A stretch of 53,873 nt of DNA. Source: Clostridia bacterium. Lineage in GTDB: Bacteria; Bacillota; Clostridia; Oscillospirales; Acutalibacteraceae. Where the stretch lies: assembly GCA_017396895.1 (NCBI GenBank), contig JAFQKN010000186.1, forward strand, positions 1 through 53,873. Direction: 5' to 3'. Position 1 is the first letter of the stretch, and each line of letters opens with the position of its first letter. The position numbers and the translations under genes were made by a program. This document shows, one piece after another, positions 8,701 through 15,981 of this stretch. The notes beneath the pieces are model-generated. The model was not told the origin of the DNA. It saw only the letters and a list, made by a program, of their open reading frames with translations, and ran no database searches.

Positions 8701-9588
8701 ATGAAAGTTATCAAAGGACGAATTTTAAGATCTATCAGCGGCTTCTATGATGTGGAAGCCGCTGACGGTGTTTACACCTGTAAGTGCAAAGGCAGTTTCC
8801 GAAACCGCAGTTTATCTCCTTTGGTCGGCGACTTTGTTACGGCCGAAACGGACGGTGAAAACGTCGGTGCGATCACTGTAATCGAGGAGCGTCGCAATGT
8901 GTTTCTGCGACCGCCCGTCGCCAATGTCGATAGACTTATTATTGTTGCATCTGCCGCAGATCCGAAACCGAACTTGTATGTGATTGATAAAATGTCAGCC
9001 ATTGCGGTTCATCGTTCGGCGGAGCCGATCGTAGTGTTTACCAAGAGCGATCTTTTTGATTGCGACGAATGGTGTGCTTTGTATGAAAAAGCCGGTATCA
9101 AGACATATCAGTGTTCTTCCGTTACCGGTGAAGGCATTGATGCGTTGCATGACTTGTTTTCGGCGGGATTGAGCGTTTTGACCGGAAATACCGGCGTCGG
9201 AAAATCTTCGCTGTTGAATGCCTTGTGTCCCGAACTTTGCTTGCAAACCAATGAAATCAGCAAGAAACTCGGTCGCGGGAAACATACAACACGTTGTGTT
9301 TCCGTTTACCGTTTCGGGGATGGACTTGTTGCAGATACACCCGGATTTTCTTCTATGGAAAAAGATGAACGCTATGATTTTATCAGAAAAGAAGAACTGG
9401 AAGATTGTTTTCCTGAATTTTCCGAGTATATCGGCACTTGCCGTTTTACGGGATGCGCACATCTGAAAGACAAGGGATGTGCAATTCTTGCCGCAGTGGA
9501 ACGCGGTGATATTGCGAGATCAAGGCATGAAAGTTATGAATCTATGTATATGGAAGTGAAAGATTTCAAAGAATGGGATAAAAAATAA
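8701..9588 (+). CDS. rsgA: Ribosome small-subunit-dependent GTPase A
   Basis: RsgA is a late 30S assembly factor. It is a circularly permuted GTPase, and the order of motifs shows this: G4 (FTKSDLF) comes before G1 (GNTGVGKSSLLN) and G3 (DTPGFSS). The N-terminal OB fold covers about residues 1-70. The C-terminal zinc finger has its cysteines and histidine in the CRFTGCAHLKDKGC segment. Length (295) is normal. In Bacillus the orthologue cpgA follows prkC, as here, although the rpe and thiN genes that come next in Bacillus are absent. Confidence 0.96.
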   Translation: MKVIKGRILRSISGFYDVEAADGVYTCKCKGSFRNRSLSPLVGDFVTAETDGENVGAITVIEERRNVFLRPPVANVDRLIIVASAADPKPNLYVIDKMSAIAVHRSAEPIVVFTKSDLFDCDEWCALYEKAGIKTYQCSSVTGEGIDALHDLFSAGLSVLTGNTGVGKSSLLNALCPELCLQTNEISKKLGRGKHTTRCVSVYRFGDGLVADTPGFSSMEKDERYDFIRKEELEDCFPEFSEYIGTCRFTGCAHLKDKGCAILAAVERGDIARSRHESYESMYMEVKDFKEWDKK

Positions 9589-9630
9589 CAAACATCCAAA
9601 AAACGCAGAAACATCGCAGTATTTTTTGCG

Positions 9631-9636
9631 TATAAT
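9631..9636 (+). promoter_or_regulatory. Possible -10 box before the 47-residue ORF and spoVM
   Basis: A TATAAT lies 43 bases before the small ORF, in the 90-base gap after rsgA. No good -35 for sigma-A is seen 16-18 bases upstream. The wider CGTATAAT also matches 6 of 8 positions of the sigma-E -10 consensus, which would suit sporulation genes, but the -35 side is again weak. The assignment to a sigma factor is inference. Confidence 0.3.
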
Positions 9637-9678: not shown

Positions 9679-9822
9679 ATGTATAAATTTCGTTCTTGCG
9701 GATTGATTGTATGCGCTTTTGGTATCGGCTTGTTGGCCGGGTGTTGTTTTCCCGAAAAACTGATCTTGGTCGTCATTTCGCTGTTACTCGTCGGCACCGG
9801 ATTTTGTATTTCCAGATGCTGA
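9679..9822 (+). CDS. Small Cys-rich membrane protein, 47 residues
   Basis: This short ORF encodes a protein with two predicted membrane helices (about residues 8-23 and 28-43) joined by a tight FPEK turn. Six of its 47 residues are cysteine, at 7, 12, 22, 23, 43 and 47. It has a very good ribosome binding site (GGTGGAGG, about 7 bases before ATG 9679). It ends 14 bases before the GTG of spoVM, so the two are probably co-transcribed and it may have a role in sporulation, although no family is recognised. It occupies the place that rpe and thiN hold in Bacillus. Coding reality is supported by the ribosome binding site, spacing and clean hydrophobic pattern. Confidence 0.75.
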   Translation: MYKFRSCGLIVCAFGIGLLAGCCFPEKLILVVISLLLVGTGFCISRC

Positions 9823-9836
9823 GGGGAGGGTATTCG

Positions 9837-9908
9837 GTGAAGATTGTTGTTCTGAACAGCCCAAAATGTATGAAAGGAATCTTAAAAGCGGTTTTTTCTT
9901 TAAAATAA
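9837..9908 (+). CDS. spoVM: Stage V sporulation protein M (SpoVM), 23 residues
   Basis: SpoVM is a tiny amphipathic helix that recognises the convex forespore membrane and anchors SpoIVA there. The ORF starts at GTG 9837, 6 bases after a GGGGAGGG site. Compared with Bacillus SpoVM (26 residues, recalled), positions M1, K2, P9, K10, G14, I15 and A18 are identical, and 16 and 17 are conservative (L for V, K for R). Pro9 is the residue known to matter for membrane curvature sensing. In Bacillus spoVM also lies downstream of prkC and rsgA, and here SipL and SpoIVA, its functional partners, follow directly. It is three residues shorter than the Bacillus protein. A strong terminator follows 5 bases after the stop. 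Confidence 0.88.
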   Translation: MKIVVLNSPKCMKGILKAVFSLK

Positions 9909-9912
9909 TTTT

Positions 9913-9952
9913 AACAGATGTTACGGTTTATTCCGTAGCATCTGTTTTTTTT
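9913..9952 (+). terminator. Intrinsic terminator after spoVM
   Basis: A 14-base stem (AACAGATGTTACGG paired with CCGTAGCATCTGTT, one G-U pair) with a TTTATT loop is followed by a run of T. It separates the rsgA-spoVM unit from sipL. Confidence 0.88.
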
Positions 9953-10024
9953 GGACAAAGCGGGAATAGAGAAATGCAAGTACGAATATGTATTAGTGAA
10001 ACAATGATTACAAGGAGCGTTCGT

Positions 10025-11518
10025 ATGGAACAATTAAACGATGTTTTGCGGTACAAAAAGTGTGTTTGTCGGGAGGTAAAAGAACATTTGATGGAAACGC
10101 AGTTGCATTTACCTGATTATTATCCCGACATTTGCAGGATCCTGTTTTGCCAGGTTAAACCTTATGCAGAGCATTGCAGTGTAGAGAACGACAGGGTTGT
10201 TATGGATGCTGTTGCCGAAATACGTCTGCTGTACTGTGATGCAGATAACAGGATGCAATTGTTTACCTCTGAAGTTCGCTATTCAAAAAATGCAGTATTG
10301 CAAAAAACGGTCAACAATGCAGTGGTACAGTGTTCTCAAAATGTTGTTTCGTCAACATACCGAGCCATTGGACCCAGGCGAGTGGATGTGAAAGCATCGA
10401 TTGCGGTTACAACAGAAGTGTCGGAACCGGTGACGCTTCAATTAAAACCCGATATAGCGGCAGATGTTGAGGTTTTGCGTGCAGATAAGGAGTTTTTTGA
10501 TCTTCATGTGCATTACAGCGGCTCATTCGTGATCAGCGAATCATTTTCCGTGCAGGATGAACGGCTGAAAGAAAGCAGAGTTTTGATGGAGTCCTGTCGT
10601 GTGAGTACAACGGAAGTGAAACTTGTCAATGATAAGATCCTTATCAAGGGGTATCTTGATATGCAACTTTCCTGTTTGCATGAAAAAGAGAATACGATAT
10701 TCAAATATAATGAGAATATAGCCTTTTCACAGGTTATTGATCTTTACGGCGTACTTGAAACGGATATCTGTAATGTAGTTTTTGATCCGCAGAAACTTAA
10801 CTTGAGTTTTCGCGAAAACGGTGAATGTGACGTTTCATTGAGTGTAAATACGGTTATCATTGCGGGCGCACAGGTGATTATCCCTGTTGTGAAAGACCTG
10901 TTTGCCGTTAGAAAGCACGCGAATGTCCATTATGATGATGGCTTGACGGGAGTTTGTTGCAGACCGATCTCGGAGAATTTTCTTTGTTCGGTTCATGTTG
11001 AGAAAAACGAATACACCGATTTGCAGATTCTTGCCGCTTACCAGAATGCAACGGATTATACGTTGCATCTTGAATCGGGAAAAATAACAGCCAAAGGTAC
11101 GATTGAAGTCTGTGCGGTTATTCAAGTTGATTCGGAGTGCCAATACATCGTACGTAAGATTGCATTTGAACAGGTAAAAGATCTCGCATCGTGTGATCTC
11201 GGCTGTGTTTTCGGCAGTATCGTGTGTAAGGGTGTCAGTTGTGCAAAGACGGCAGACGGGTTGACGCTGAAAGCAGAATTGGATCTGGTCGGTTGTGTGA
11301 TCGGTGAAGAGACGATTCGCTATGTTGATTCGTATTCACTCGAGGAAAAAGAGCCTGAAGATGTCTGTTTGATCTCCCTGTATTTTGCGCAACCCGGCGA
11401 AGGAGTTTGGGCAATTGCAAAAGAAAATCGCGTGCCCGTTCAATCTCTGCGTGTGCTGAACGATCTGCATGAGGATATTATCAAAGAAGATCAAACGCTG
11501 CTGTTATTGAATCACTGA
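10025..11518 (+). CDS. sipL: SpoIVA-interacting protein SipL (SPOCS/DUF3794 and LysM)
   Basis: SipL is a clostridial coat morphogenetic protein that binds SpoIVA and is needed to hold the coat on the forespore. The 497-residue product has three repeated SPOCS (DUF3794) segments, roughly 30-120, 170-265 and 310-410. A LysM domain at the end (about 452-495, with LYFAQPGEGVWAIAKENRV and a closing IIKEDQTLLLL) is the part known to contact SpoIVA. Length is close to the C. difficile protein (about 520). The open frame runs upstream to 9866, but ATG 10025 follows AAGGAG by 8 bases and matches where the homology begins. The neighbours spoVM and spoIVA support the call. Confidence 0.92.
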   Translation: MEQLNDVLRYKKCVCREVKEHLMETQLHLPDYYPDICRILFCQVKPYAEHCSVENDRVVMDAVAEIRLLYCDADNRMQLFTSEVRYSKNAVLQKTVNNAVVQCSQNVVSSTYRAIGPRRVDVKASIAVTTEVSEPVTLQLKPDIAADVEVLRADKEFFDLHVHYSGSFVISESFSVQDERLKESRVLMESCRVSTTEVKLVNDKILIKGYLDMQLSCLHEKENTIFKYNENIAFSQVIDLYGVLETDICNVVFDPQKLNLSFRENGECDVSLSVNTVIIAGAQVIIPVVKDLFAVRKHANVHYDDGLTGVCCRPISENFLCSVHVEKNEYTDLQILAAYQNATDYTLHLESGKITAKGTIEVCAVIQVDSECQYIVRKIAFEQVKDLASCDLGCVFGSIVCKGVSCAKTADGLTLKAELDLVGCVIGEETIRYVDSYSLEEKEPEDVCLISLYFAQPGEGVWAIAKENRVPVQSLRVLNDLHEDIIKEDQTLLLLNH

Positions 11519-11566
11519 ACGTATTGCATATCATGCTGTGTGTAATTTTTTAACGGAGGAATAAGT

Positions 11567-13045
11567 ATGACCGGAACAGCGATATACCAGAACATTGCAA
11601 CAAGAACAGGCGGTGATATATACATTGGTGTGGTAGGGCCTGTAAGAACCGGAAAATCAACTTTTATCAAACGCTTTTTTGAAAAACTGATCATTCCTGA
11701 TATGGATGACGGCTTTGTCCGTGAACGAATGATCGACGAATTACCGCAATCGTCTGCAGGGCGAACGATCATGACTACAGAACCTAAGTTTGTCCCCGAA
11801 AAGGCGGCATCGATTGCGGTGGACGGTAATCTGAATATACGTGTGCGTATGGTGGATTGTGTGGGCTACATCGTTCCGTCTTCGCTTGGGTATTTTGAAG
11901 ATGAAGCTCCGAGAATGGTGAAAACACCGTGGTTTGATGAGGAGATTCCATTTAACATGGCCGCAGAGATCGGAACGAGAAAAGTTATTACCGATCACTC
12001 GACAATCGGGCTTGTTGTGACAAGTGACGGAAGCATCAGCGATATCCCGCGAGATGAATACGCAGAGGCCGAAGAACGTGTGATACAGGAATTGAAACAG
12101 ATCGACAAACCGTTTGTTGTTTTGCTGAACTGTATGTATCCCCATAGTGCGTCTGCAACGGAAATGGCGGTTGAATTGACCGAACGCTATGAAGTTCCCG
12201 TGATTCCCGTCAATTGTCTTGAACTTGAAGAAGATGAAATCAAAGAAATACTTATGAAGATCCTATATGAGTTTCCGGTTCGCAGAGTGGATATTCGTTG
12301 TCCTGCTTGGTTTTCCGATGTTTCATCCTCTGAAGGATTCAAGGCTGAATTTCTGAATAAATTGCGTCAATTGACAGTACCGCTTCATTGTTTGCGAAAT
12401 GTGGAAACATTTACAGCATCCTTGGCTGAAATCACAAACATTGTCAGTGTCAACGACAGCGAATTGAATCCGGCCAATGGAACGGCCAGCATTCAAGTCG
12501 GTTTTGATAACTCGTTATTCTATCAGCAGATTTCAGAAGTTTCAGGGGTTCAGATCACGTCCGATGCGATGCTCATTGCGACGTTGAAAGAAATGGCTTA
12601 TGCCAAAAAGAAATATGAAAAACTGGAAGCGGCATTGCAGGAAGTAGAAGCAACGGGTTACGGAATCGTGATGCCATCCATTGACGAACTGACACTTGAA
12701 GAGCCTGAAATTATGAAGCAAGGCGGTCGTTACGGTGTACGGCTGAAAGCATCTGCACCGTCCATTCATATGATGAAAGCAGATATAACAACAGAGGTCG
12801 CACCTATCGTCGGCAGTGAAAAACAGAGCGAAGATCTTGTTATGTATTTGTTGAAAGAATTTGAAGAGAATCCCGCAAAGATATGGGAATCAAATATATT
12901 CGGCACTTCATTGAATGAACTTGTAAACGAAGGTTTGCGCAACAAGTTGATGCACATGCCAAATGAGGCAAGAATGAAACTGCAACAGACATTGGAACGC
13001 ATTATCAATGAGGGATGCAGCGGATTGATCTGTATTATCATATAA
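11567..13045 (+). CDS. spoIVA: Stage IV sporulation protein A, coat-basement ATPase
   Basis: SpoIVA polymerises on the outer forespore membrane with ATP hydrolysis and forms the base on which the spore coat is built. Walker A is GPVRTGKS at about 24-31 and the Walker B-like aspartate is in MVDCVGY near residue 97. The C-terminus NEGCSGLICIII is nearly the same as in Bacillus SpoIVA and is the region that contacts SpoVM. The length of 492 residues equals the Bacillus protein. ATG 11567 has an excellent ribosome binding site (CGGAGGAA). The gene is 48 bases after sipL and is probably its co-transcribed partner in the mother cell. Confidence 0.97.
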   Translation: MTGTAIYQNIATRTGGDIYIGVVGPVRTGKSTFIKRFFEKLIIPDMDDGFVRERMIDELPQSSAGRTIMTTEPKFVPEKAASIAVDGNLNIRVRMVDCVGYIVPSSLGYFEDEAPRMVKTPWFDEEIPFNMAAEIGTRKVITDHSTIGLVVTSDGSISDIPRDEYAEAEERVIQELKQIDKPFVVLLNCMYPHSASATEMAVELTERYEVPVIPVNCLELEEDEIKEILMKILYEFPVRRVDIRCPAWFSDVSSSEGFKAEFLNKLRQLTVPLHCLRNVETFTASLAEITNIVSVNDSELNPANGTASIQVGFDNSLFYQQISEVSGVQITSDAMLIATLKEMAYAKKKYEKLEAALQEVEATGYGIVMPSIDELTLEEPEIMKQGGRYGVRLKASAPSIHMMKADITTEVAPIVGSEKQSEDLVMYLLKEFEENPAKIWESNIFGTSLNELVNEGLRNKLMHMPNEARMKLQQTLERIINEGCSGLICIII

Positions 13046-13516: not shown

Positions 13517-13668
13517 TGGCAACGACCTCCATGGGGAACAGGATACCATATTCCCCTTAAAAAAGCAATCATCAATTCTTCTTTCACGGTCTAAAACGGC
13601 AAGACAAGTCAATACTTGTTATGAAAAATCATATAAATAAATGTGTGCTGAATGAAAGGGGAATTTGC

Positions 13669-15981
13669 ATGAAAGCAGTTGTTATGTGCGGTGGCGTCGG
13701 AAGCAGAATGCGACCGATCACAGAGGTGATCCCAAAGCCGATGTTGAGCATTTGCGGACGACCGATCATCGACATTCTCATTGAAAAACTGATTGATGCA
13801 CAAGCTGATGAAATTTATCTTACACTCGGTTACAAAGCCGAGCAGATCATTGCGTACGTGCAATCCAACAATTATACGGTTCCCATACACTTTGTTGTTG
13901 AAGAACATCCGCTCGGGACGGCCGGCAGCGTCAAAAACGCCGTTCACAACACGGGAGATGATGTGCTTGTTATCAGCGGTGACAATATTTTCAGTTACGA
14001 TCTCCGAAAAGCGTATGAAGAACATCAAAGAACCGATGCTACCGTCAGCATCATTTGTGACCGACGTGATGATCCGCGCGAATACGGAACCGTATGCGTG
14101 AATGAAGAACATGAGATTGTTCGCTTTGTTGAAAAGCCGTCCTGGGCGCAGGCGGAATCCGATATGATCAATACAGGCATCTATTTTCTGAAAGGCTCTG
14201 TTTTGAATATGATTCCGACTGACCGAATGTATGATTTTGCACATGACCTGTTTGTACAGTTGCTGAAGAAAAACAGTGTGTTTAAATGCATAACAGCGAA
14301 TGGTAATTGGGGCGATCTGGGGGATGCCAAAGCGTATATGGAATCCAATTACAAGGCGTTGAACGGCGAATACGGAAAAATTCGGAAAGACGGTTCTCTT
14401 ATCACGGAAAATACAATGTTGCCGAACGGATCGATGGTTTTTGCACCATGTGTTATTGCCGGTGACGTGCAAATCGGTGATAACTGTACGATCGGTCCTT
14501 GCTCTGTACTTTCGGCCGGATGTAAAATCGAATCTGCTTGCAAAATAAGTTATACTGTTATGGATGAAGATTGCAGTGTTGCGTCGAATGTCGAGTTGAA
14601 CGGTTGTTATATCGGCAGATCGTGTGTTATAGGTGCCTATTCCCGTGTGCTTTCGGATGCAGTGATCGCGGGCTATTCGCACTTGCATAATTTTGTTAAA
14701 ATAGCATCGGGAGTCAAGTTGTCCGCCGGCAGTACGGTTGAAGATTCAAAAGTGATCACTTCATCCAATGCGGAAGATATCCCACGACAGTTTACGGTAA
14801 CTGCAAGCGGAACCTACGGAAAAGCGTTTGAAACGATTATGCCGCAGCAGGCAATGCTTTTAGGTATGGCAGTGGCTTCAGATCGTAATAACAGCAGAAT
14901 CGGCGTAGCGTGTGACGGTTCGCACCTTTCGCAACTATATAAAAATGCAATTCGAACGGGGATACAGTCCTGCGGAAAAACGGTTTATGACTTCGGAACG
15001 GTTTTCAGGGCACAGCGTGCTTTGTTTACACAGTATTGTGATTTGGACTTTTTTATCTGTGTAACATCTGACGAGGCTGATTTACAGGTCGCATTTTCCG
15101 CTAAAAATTGTATTCCGCTGACGGGAAAAGCGGAACGATCAATCGATTCGGCGTACCGCTTTCGTAATTTTTCCTATGCGGAAATATCGACATTGTCGGA
15201 TGTCTTTTATATGGAGCCGCTGAGTGCGATCTACAAATCAATTCTTTCACATATGTTGCCGATCTCGGAAATGCAAATTCCGATAGCCGTTGAATGCGAC
15301 AATAAAATCATCTATGAGCTGATGACATCTGTGTTAAAGAGCAATCGGTATATAAACGGCTATGGCGGTCTTTTGTTTATTATTGACCGACACGGCGAAA
15401 AATTCTATGCTGTCGAAAACGAACACGCATATTCGTATGACAGGATTCTTTGCATTTGTGCGTATGATGCTTTTAAGAAAAGTAAAGATGTTGTTATAAA
15501 TGAGGAAGCACCGAGCCTGATTGATGATCTTGCAGTTAAAATGAATTGTAGATCCTATCGTCTTTATGAAGGGCAAAAAGACTTCGATGATGCAGTATAC
15601 GGGCTTGCTGAGTCAAATCTTTGGTCTTTTGACGGCGTGTTTTGTATCGTAAAGTTGCTTGATATTATCAAAAGAACAAAAATGACGCTTGCTCAATTAT
15701 CTGATGAACTTCCGGAACAGTATGTCAGGCATTTTTATTTTGATTATACGGTCAGCCCCATGAAATTCAGGCGCAACCTTATTCATGACGGTGCGCAACG
15801 GTCTGAAACGAGAAGCGGCTATTTTGAATGGGAGGATGAGCGCGGGGTGATCAGAGTGAAACCCGACTCCGACGGAAAGCGTGTTCGCGTGTTGATAGAG
15901 GCGGACTCCATGGAGATTTCAAGAGAATTATCTGCTGATGCGGAATTGAAAATACGAAACTGCTCTATTGACAATTTATAA
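13669..15981 (+). CDS. Sugar-nucleotidyltransferase fused to a degenerate phosphomannomutase-like half
   Basis: The first 230 residues are a nucleotidyltransferase (GGVGSRMRPITEVIPKPML glycine-rich NTP loop and lysine), like mannose-1-phosphate guanylyltransferase or GlmU/RfbA enzymes. Hexapeptide (left-handed beta helix) repeats follow at about 245-350. The last 400 residues follow the phosphohexomutase fold, but the key loops are altered. The TASHNP phosphoserine loop reads VTSDEA, so the serine is kept but not the rest (about residue 463). The metal loop DGDGDR reads IIDRHGEK (about 570). Mutase activity is therefore unlikely. The start ATG 13669 has a GAAAGGGG site; the frame opens earlier at 13621 without one. 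Substrate is unknown. Confidence 0.85.
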   Translation: MKAVVMCGGVGSRMRPITEVIPKPMLSICGRPIIDILIEKLIDAQADEIYLTLGYKAEQIIAYVQSNNYTVPIHFVVEEHPLGTAGSVKNAVHNTGDDVLVISGDNIFSYDLRKAYEEHQRTDATVSIICDRRDDPREYGTVCVNEEHEIVRFVEKPSWAQAESDMINTGIYFLKGSVLNMIPTDRMYDFAHDLFVQLLKKNSVFKCITANGNWGDLGDAKAYMESNYKALNGEYGKIRKDGSLITENTMLPNGSMVFAPCVIAGDVQIGDNCTIGPCSVLSAGCKIESACKISYTVMDEDCSVASNVELNGCYIGRSCVIGAYSRVLSDAVIAGYSHLHNFVKIASGVKLSAGSTVEDSKVITSSNAEDIPRQFTVTASGTYGKAFETIMPQQAMLLGMAVASDRNNSRIGVACDGSHLSQLYKNAIRTGIQSCGKTVYDFGTVFRAQRALFTQYCDLDFFICVTSDEADLQVAFSAKNCIPLTGKAERSIDSAYRFRNFSYAEISTLSDVFYMEPLSAIYKSILSHMLPISEMQIPIAVECDNKIIYELMTSVLKSNRYINGYGGLLFIIDRHGEKFYAVENEHAYSYDRILCICAYDAFKKSKDVVINEEAPSLIDDLAVKMNCRSYRLYEGQKDFDDAVYGLAESNLWSFDGVFCIVKLLDIIKRTKMTLAQLSDELPEQYVRHFYFDYTVSPMKFRRNLIHDGAQRSETRSGYFEWEDERGVIRVKPDSDGKRVRVLIEADSMEISRELSADAELKIRNCSIDNL

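Follow-up and report, generated by a model that had tools for sequence, protein, structure and literature searches.

SpoVM is a short amphipathic peptide which has 26 residues in Bacillus subtilis, where its gene lies downstream of prkC and rsgA. The genes spoVM, sipL and spoIVA are apart in both B. subtilis and Clostridioides difficile, sipL and spoIVA of the latter lying elsewhere than spoVM. In this work we analyse a 53,873-nucleotide stretch of DNA from a Clostridia bacterium (contig JAFQKN010000186.1, from a draft genome of 2.69 Mb; hereafter the window), in which a 47-residue membrane microprotein, for which we coined the label STM, is encoded directly upstream of spoVM and followed by sipL and spoIVA. 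The identities of these genes, the STM family, its co-location with spoVM, the selection acting on the protein and its charge pattern were all computed here. The closest described system is CD25622 of C. difficile, a gene for a 50-residue protein of unknown function, which according to PMC5607322 is co-transcribed with spoVM and is called primarily conserved in, or apparently unique to, the Peptostreptococcaceae. Like STM, the hairpin which we take to be this protein is encoded directly upstream of spoVM. C. difficile spoVM differs in adjoining rpmB, and, in contrast to the distribution given in that paper, the related hairpins described below occur in many families of the class. The SipL-SpoIVA complex of C. 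difficile (PMC6436350) likewise joins a SPOCS/LysM protein to a polymerising coat-basement ATPase, whereas in the window the two genes are mutually adjacent and next to spoVM.

On the plus strand of the window the order is prpC, prkC, rsgA, a 47-residue open reading frame (ORF), a 23-residue ORF, sipL and spoIVA (Table 1). An earlier reading of this sequence, the original prediction, had placed prkC and rsgA upstream of spoVM and had SpoVM, SipL and SpoIVA encoded together; Pfam and NCBIfam matches and ORF positions agree with both statements and add prpC. Compared with the gene order of B. subtilis, there is neither rpe nor thiN between rsgA and spoVM, and STM stands before spoVM. The statement that rpe and thiN are gone is right for this interval, the remainder of the genome not having been searched for either.

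The interval considered in the original prediction starts at 9679, which is the start of stm, an ORF left undiscussed there. GGTGGAGG lies 5' of it. In the product a basic N-terminus is followed by a pair of hydrophobic stretches flanking a conserved proline (the window protein being itself one of the seeds of the profiles), and two helices are predicted on the basis of hydropathy and charge. Of 46 STM proteins, 43 have an N-terminus of net positive charge, with a mean of +2.4 against -0.1 for the turn and +0.8 for the C-terminus; because of this pattern and the positive-inside rule, both ends are predicted to lie in the cytosol. No significant family for STM was found in Pfam or NCBIfam (best NCBIfam expect value, E, 0.0051). 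Weak matches to the Pfam families DUF6249 (12 of 46 members, best E 4e-4) and DUF3784 (5 of 46, best 0.0044) were not taken as homology.

The 23-residue ORF had been read as SpoVM with an excellent ribosome binding site, and the reading is confirmed. GGGGAGGG is found 5' of the ORF, and spoVM has a ribosome binding site of its own. The NCBIfam model NF033436 aligns to positions 1-23 of 26 with 15.7 bits (E 0.012), below its cut-off of 31, and a leave-genus-out profile of 58 SpoVM sequences from outside the window's genus gives 30.6 bits. None of 5000 shuffled versions of the peptide reached that score (4538 were scored at all, maximum 11.9), and the raw stop-to-stop segment, at 22.5 bits, ranked first among 2150 window segments, the runner-up having 8.5 bits; shuffles and ranking together rule out a chance ORF. 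Searched by sequence, the PDB gave no match to the peptide. Residues M1, K2, P9, K10, G14, I15 and A18 are shared with B. subtilis SpoVM, which has Ile at position 6 where the window peptide, 23 residues long and lacking a charged tail, has Leu. The place downstream of prkC-rsgA is kept in 14 loci of the family.

The association of the two small genes was followed outwards from the genus. An STM-type ORF stands upstream of spoVM in 18 of the 19 spoVM loci of the family and genus, missing only in L086 (hairpins in these loci, and in the 30 and 20 class-level SpoVM loci discussed below, were counted by eye). Of the 26 genomes in the genus, 21 contain a SpoVM match with E no higher than 0.1 and 19 of these have STM directly upstream of spoVM, of which only 4 carry sipL-spoIVA alongside; for the other 15, all drafts, the SpoVM contig holds no sipL or spoIVA match, one or both genes being undetected in 5 of them. 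Of 147 genomes from the order, 76 have a match to an STM-only profile, and SpoVM follows within 200 bp at 62 of the 70 matches inspected out of 78 listed (52 of 60 outside the family), where the density of SpoVM matches would give about 0.5 by chance over all 70. In the class, 83 of 245 genomes have a match to the wider profile A3, with SpoVM downstream at 60 of 69 inspected loci (54 of 63 outside the order) against a chance expectation, obtained in the same manner, of about 1.1 for all 69; here 69 of 88 STM matches were inspected, the window not repeated, and the SpoVM profile was built in part from the order-level finds. Over 143 fetched loci, amounting to 1.22 Mb of what is not random sequence, 84 of 93 STM matches of at least 20 bits have SpoVM just downstream. 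At the level of whole genomes STM is associated with SpoIVA: 73 of the 245 class genomes have both, 10 STM only, 101 SpoIVA only and 61 neither (Fisher p 2e-5, relatedness ignored), assuming that both surveys drew the same 245 genomes, on which their handles agree. In L074 the STM-spoVM pair forms one unit at about 9.7-10.0 kb on the minus strand; thiN and sipL-spoIVA are at a distance from it, on the other strand of the same contig.

Two genomes labelled C. difficile (HC132 and CD160; L298, L299) encode a 50-residue hairpin 35 bp before SpoVM, with its own GGAGG. Profile A3 matches its residues 8-50 with 23.7 bits, a score equalled by none of 5000 shuffles. By length and position we take it to be the published CD25622, the genomes compared here being other strains. 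Co-transcription of the pair and its control by sigma-E are known from one paper, which describes C. difficile spoVM as sigma-E dependent (PMC5607322). The CD25622 insertion studied there is probably polar and so amounts to a double mutant. It resembles the loss of spoVM, which is what would be expected if both proteins act in one step, and the data show that neither gene is essential in C. difficile. The idea that STM stands in for SpoVM in C. difficile, and so explains its dispensability, is contradicted by the polar insertion as reported. Whether STM acts via SpoVM these insertion data do not tell. Among the papers searched CD25622 appeared in this one, and among the literature matches listed no other microprotein was reported with spoVM.

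The reading we prefer, with a probability of about 0.45, is that in the mother cell STM serves SpoVM as a membrane partner, encoded in an inherited two-unit locus. The existence of two units, their inheritance, and that STM acts with SpoVM and in which manner, are what we infer, as is the function of STM itself. The first unit, stm-spoVM, would comprise a promoter-like element, the 47-residue hairpin protein, a 14-bp gap, SpoVM and a terminator; the second, sipL-spoIVA, would be the neighbouring spore-coat basement unit. The sporulating mother cell would make STM and SpoVM from a single message, and STM would insert in the mother-cell membrane and the outer forespore membrane, its two termini facing the cytosol of the mother cell. 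There it may support the entry of SpoVM into the membrane, its stay in it or its escape from degradation at it, after which SpoVM would recruit SpoIVA, and SipL would bind SpoIVA.

Several observations weigh against such a partnership. Hairpins upstream of SpoVM are common without being universal: among the 30 best class-level SpoVM loci 20 have one, as do 7 of 20 loci from genomes missed by the STM profile (including L334, with a gap of 125 bp). Two genomes of the genus have weak SpoVM matches without STM, G012 at 6.7 bits and G001 at 14.9 bits, both of them probably noise. No SpoIVA match was found in 10 of the 83 STM-positive class genomes, and 101 of the 174 SpoIVA-positive ones had no STM match. 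The narrower profile A1 gives the C. difficile hairpin only 7.5 bits, reached by 87 of 5000 shuffles. In PMC5607322 the defect of the CD25622 insertion is mild (a 3- to 5-fold effect on heat resistance, coat detached in about one fifth of the cells) and its authors infer little impact of CD25622. Finally, the group f46 has STM without detectable SpoVM.

These last genomes lead to a different explanation, by which STM belongs to the same stage of coat or cortex formation but does not act through SpoVM. It might, for instance, be an anchor in its own right in the outer forespore membrane, and the common message would then fix the timing only. Among ten f46 genomes listed, which are those with at least some match (matchless genomes are not all listed), SpoIVA was found in 9, STM in 8 and SpoVM in none. 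Two tandem hairpins occupy the thiN-rpmB position in all eight f46 STM loci (L225, L237, L243, L262, L274-L277), with rpmB convergent downstream in six of them; therefore a hairpin gene can exist in the absence of SpoVM, consistent with an independent role as well as with substitution for SpoVM. The first of the two hairpins, beginning MxYxY(R/K), is a distinct subtype. These eight loci account for all but one of the class-level STM loci without a SpoVM score, the remaining one, L229, having a SpoVM-like frame visible by eye. At the order level L150, L152, L158, L170, L171, L175, L182 and L200 gave no SpoVM score; such a frame is visible by eye in L158, L171 and L175, and L170, L182 and L200 carry STM with no SpoVM nearby. 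In L170 and L182 the hairpin gene is retained between rsgA and sipL, no SpoVM frame being found in the vicinity. Clostridia without a findable SpoVM have been noted before, in PMC3533761. An independent STM is nevertheless the less probable of the two readings: outside such groups the gene is nearly always directly upstream of SpoVM, and the polar insertion in C. difficile, as described in PMC5607322, adds nothing visible to the loss of spoVM. Broader still, and in our opinion unlikely, is the view that STM is an unrecognised component of the coat basement across much of the class, working with SpoVM and in f46 replacing it as the anchor. Against it stands the nearly normal spore formed, according to the same source, after the polar insertion that removes both genes, which means that the STM-SpoVM pair is not the only anchor in C. 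difficile.

If the product of stm did little and its translation merely controlled that of spoVM, stm would be a leader ORF, for which the short gap speaks, 14 bp in the window and mostly 10-40 bp elsewhere. The substitution pattern makes this improbable. The ratio of nonsynonymous to synonymous divergence (omega) for stm is 0.15 between the window and L067; L122 and L125 have an identical STM segment despite a proportion of synonymous differences (pS) of 0.32; and between L121 and L124 nonsynonymous divergence (dN) is 0.02 at a synonymous divergence (dS) of 2.1, which is saturated, the larger dS values of stm being in general near saturation. Gly and Pro positions and the charge pattern are conserved over many families. 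Hence stm is a protein-coding gene under purifying selection, and the constraint at the protein level is strong. Moreover, the gap exceeds 100 bp in some relatives (L156, L163, L169, L179 and L195), and spoVM does not lack its own ribosome binding site.

The original prediction suggested that sipL and spoIVA had moved next to spoVM and that the arrangement is a self-contained module, a model which amounts to a new assembly peculiar to the lineage. The adjacency of the three genes, which are apart in B. subtilis and C. difficile, stands; the movement is not supported. For comparison, 43 loci were drawn from the family's other genera, mainly from top-scoring SpoIVA matches on long contigs, and since such a choice favours high SpoIVA scores the following fractions are not unbiased rates: sipL is immediately upstream of spoIVA in 31/43, and 14 of these 31 have spoVM in the interval from rsgA to sipL, so that the order spoVM-sipL-spoIVA is conserved in 14/43 (in L081 only tblastn detected sipL, and in L098 a distance of 2.0 kb separates spoVM and sipL). 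Within the family the arrangement rsgA-thiN-(STM)-spoVM-sipL-spoIVA occurs commonly. Six other families of the order have related gene orders, and from them come the 12 of 40 loci outside the family having STM, sipL and spoIVA together (spoIVA being on the opposite strand in L182 and sipL 3 kb off in L203). This recurrence makes recent assembly improbable. The distance from rsgA to spoVM is 825-1071 bp in 13 of the 14 family loci, space enough for thiN, and 92 bp in L086, which has no thiN there and resembles the window's group; a thiN confirmed by Pfam follows rsgA in L074 (with spoVM elsewhere), L085 and L265 (there after rpe). Inside the genus sipL is next to spoIVA in 4 of 18 loci (the window, L056, L067 and L069) and apart in 14, and where both genes were found in these others they are on different contigs or, in G008, about 30 kb apart. 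SpoIVA occurs in 22 genus genomes, from which the loci at contig ends (G016, G018, G022, G023) were left out. Because the gene orders recur in the family and in six other families, it is most likely that an old cluster was inherited, that thiN was lost from the place between rsgA and spoVM, and that the cluster was broken in most sisters. In three class-level relatives (L259, L261, L268) spoIVA is divergent beside stm-spoVM, a second mode of linkage.

The self-contained module is also at odds with the signals between the genes, and we regard it as decidedly improbable. The terminator which had been noticed between spoVM and sipL is real by folding, and a hairpin with a T-run follows spoVM at the same place in the three other members of the genus that keep the cluster (z -3.6 in L056, -4.7 in L067, -5.8 in L069), so the three coat genes are split in all four. 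Upstream of stm the pattern ACATN14CGTATAWT is present in the same four and only once in the window, both strands considered, though it was derived from the very members in which it was counted. We regard this element as a candidate mother-cell promoter of the sigma-E type; a sigma-E scan with loose settings picked a different site in the window and nothing clear before stm. The element upstream of sipL, a further candidate promoter, has a core identical in the window, L067 and L069 and a variant in L056. Because these three signals are conserved, stm-spoVM and sipL-spoIVA are probably two transcription units, both of which may be read from mother-cell promoters; a single unit for the three coat genes is not what the terminator in four of four members and the element before sipL predict. 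STM-spoVM is the pair most often together, and sipL-spoIVA looks like a separable second unit.

That STM is an unrelated hydrophobic frame without a role, near spoVM by chance, would agree with its hydrophobic sequence and its weak matches to many unrelated membrane families, but the specificity of the profile, the adjacency to SpoVM and the purifying selection now make it very unlikely indeed.

The larger proteins of the locus have the domains of their families. The sipL product contains two SPOCS stretches (PF12673, 62.1 bits) and a marginal C-terminal LysM domain of 20.4 bits, just below the cut-off of 20.9. In SpoIVA the families PF09547, PF20438 and PF20439 span residues 1-492 (ATPase, middle and C-terminal domains), and both the Walker A motif GPVRTGKS and Gly486 are present. 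The genome also encodes Spo0A (284 bits). A tRNA was the sole Rfam match in the window. The long ORF at 13621-15981, after rnhA, looks by eye like a nucleotidyltransferase whose C-terminal part resembles phosphomannomutase, and its relatives come after spoIVA-rnhA in members of the genus and in L086.

Table 1. Positions of the features of the stm-spoVM and sipL-spoIVA region in the window
Feature	Position	Strand	Description
rsgA	8701..9588	+	Upstream neighbour; without the thiN that comes next in many relatives
Promoter-like element upstream of stm	9611..9636	+	ACAT-N14-CGTATAAT
stm	9679..9822	+	47-residue predicted two-helix membrane microprotein; ends 14 bp before spoVM
spoVM	9837..9908	+	23 codons; 23-residue amphipathic coat anchor; GTG start
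Intrinsic terminator after spoVM	9913..9946	+	14 pairs, -21.4 kcal/mol, z -5.3, U-tail
Conserved element upstream of sipL	9964..10000	+	GAATATGTATTAGTGAA at its end; candidate second promoter
sipL	10025..11518	+	SPOCS + LysM protein; putative SpoIVA-binding partner, by family
spoIVA	11567..13045	+	Polymerising coat ATPase; TIGR02836, 686.5 bits

The recurrence of the cluster corrects the idea that coat genes were recently assembled in the window, and the lasting interest of the locus lies in the microprotein before spoVM rather than in the gene cluster. Its gene is small enough to escape notice and stays beside spoVM in many families, so STM can be used as a marker for SpoVM genes which annotation misses. 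In bacteria without SpoVID, it is a direct and testable candidate for what keeps the coat attached to the forespore.

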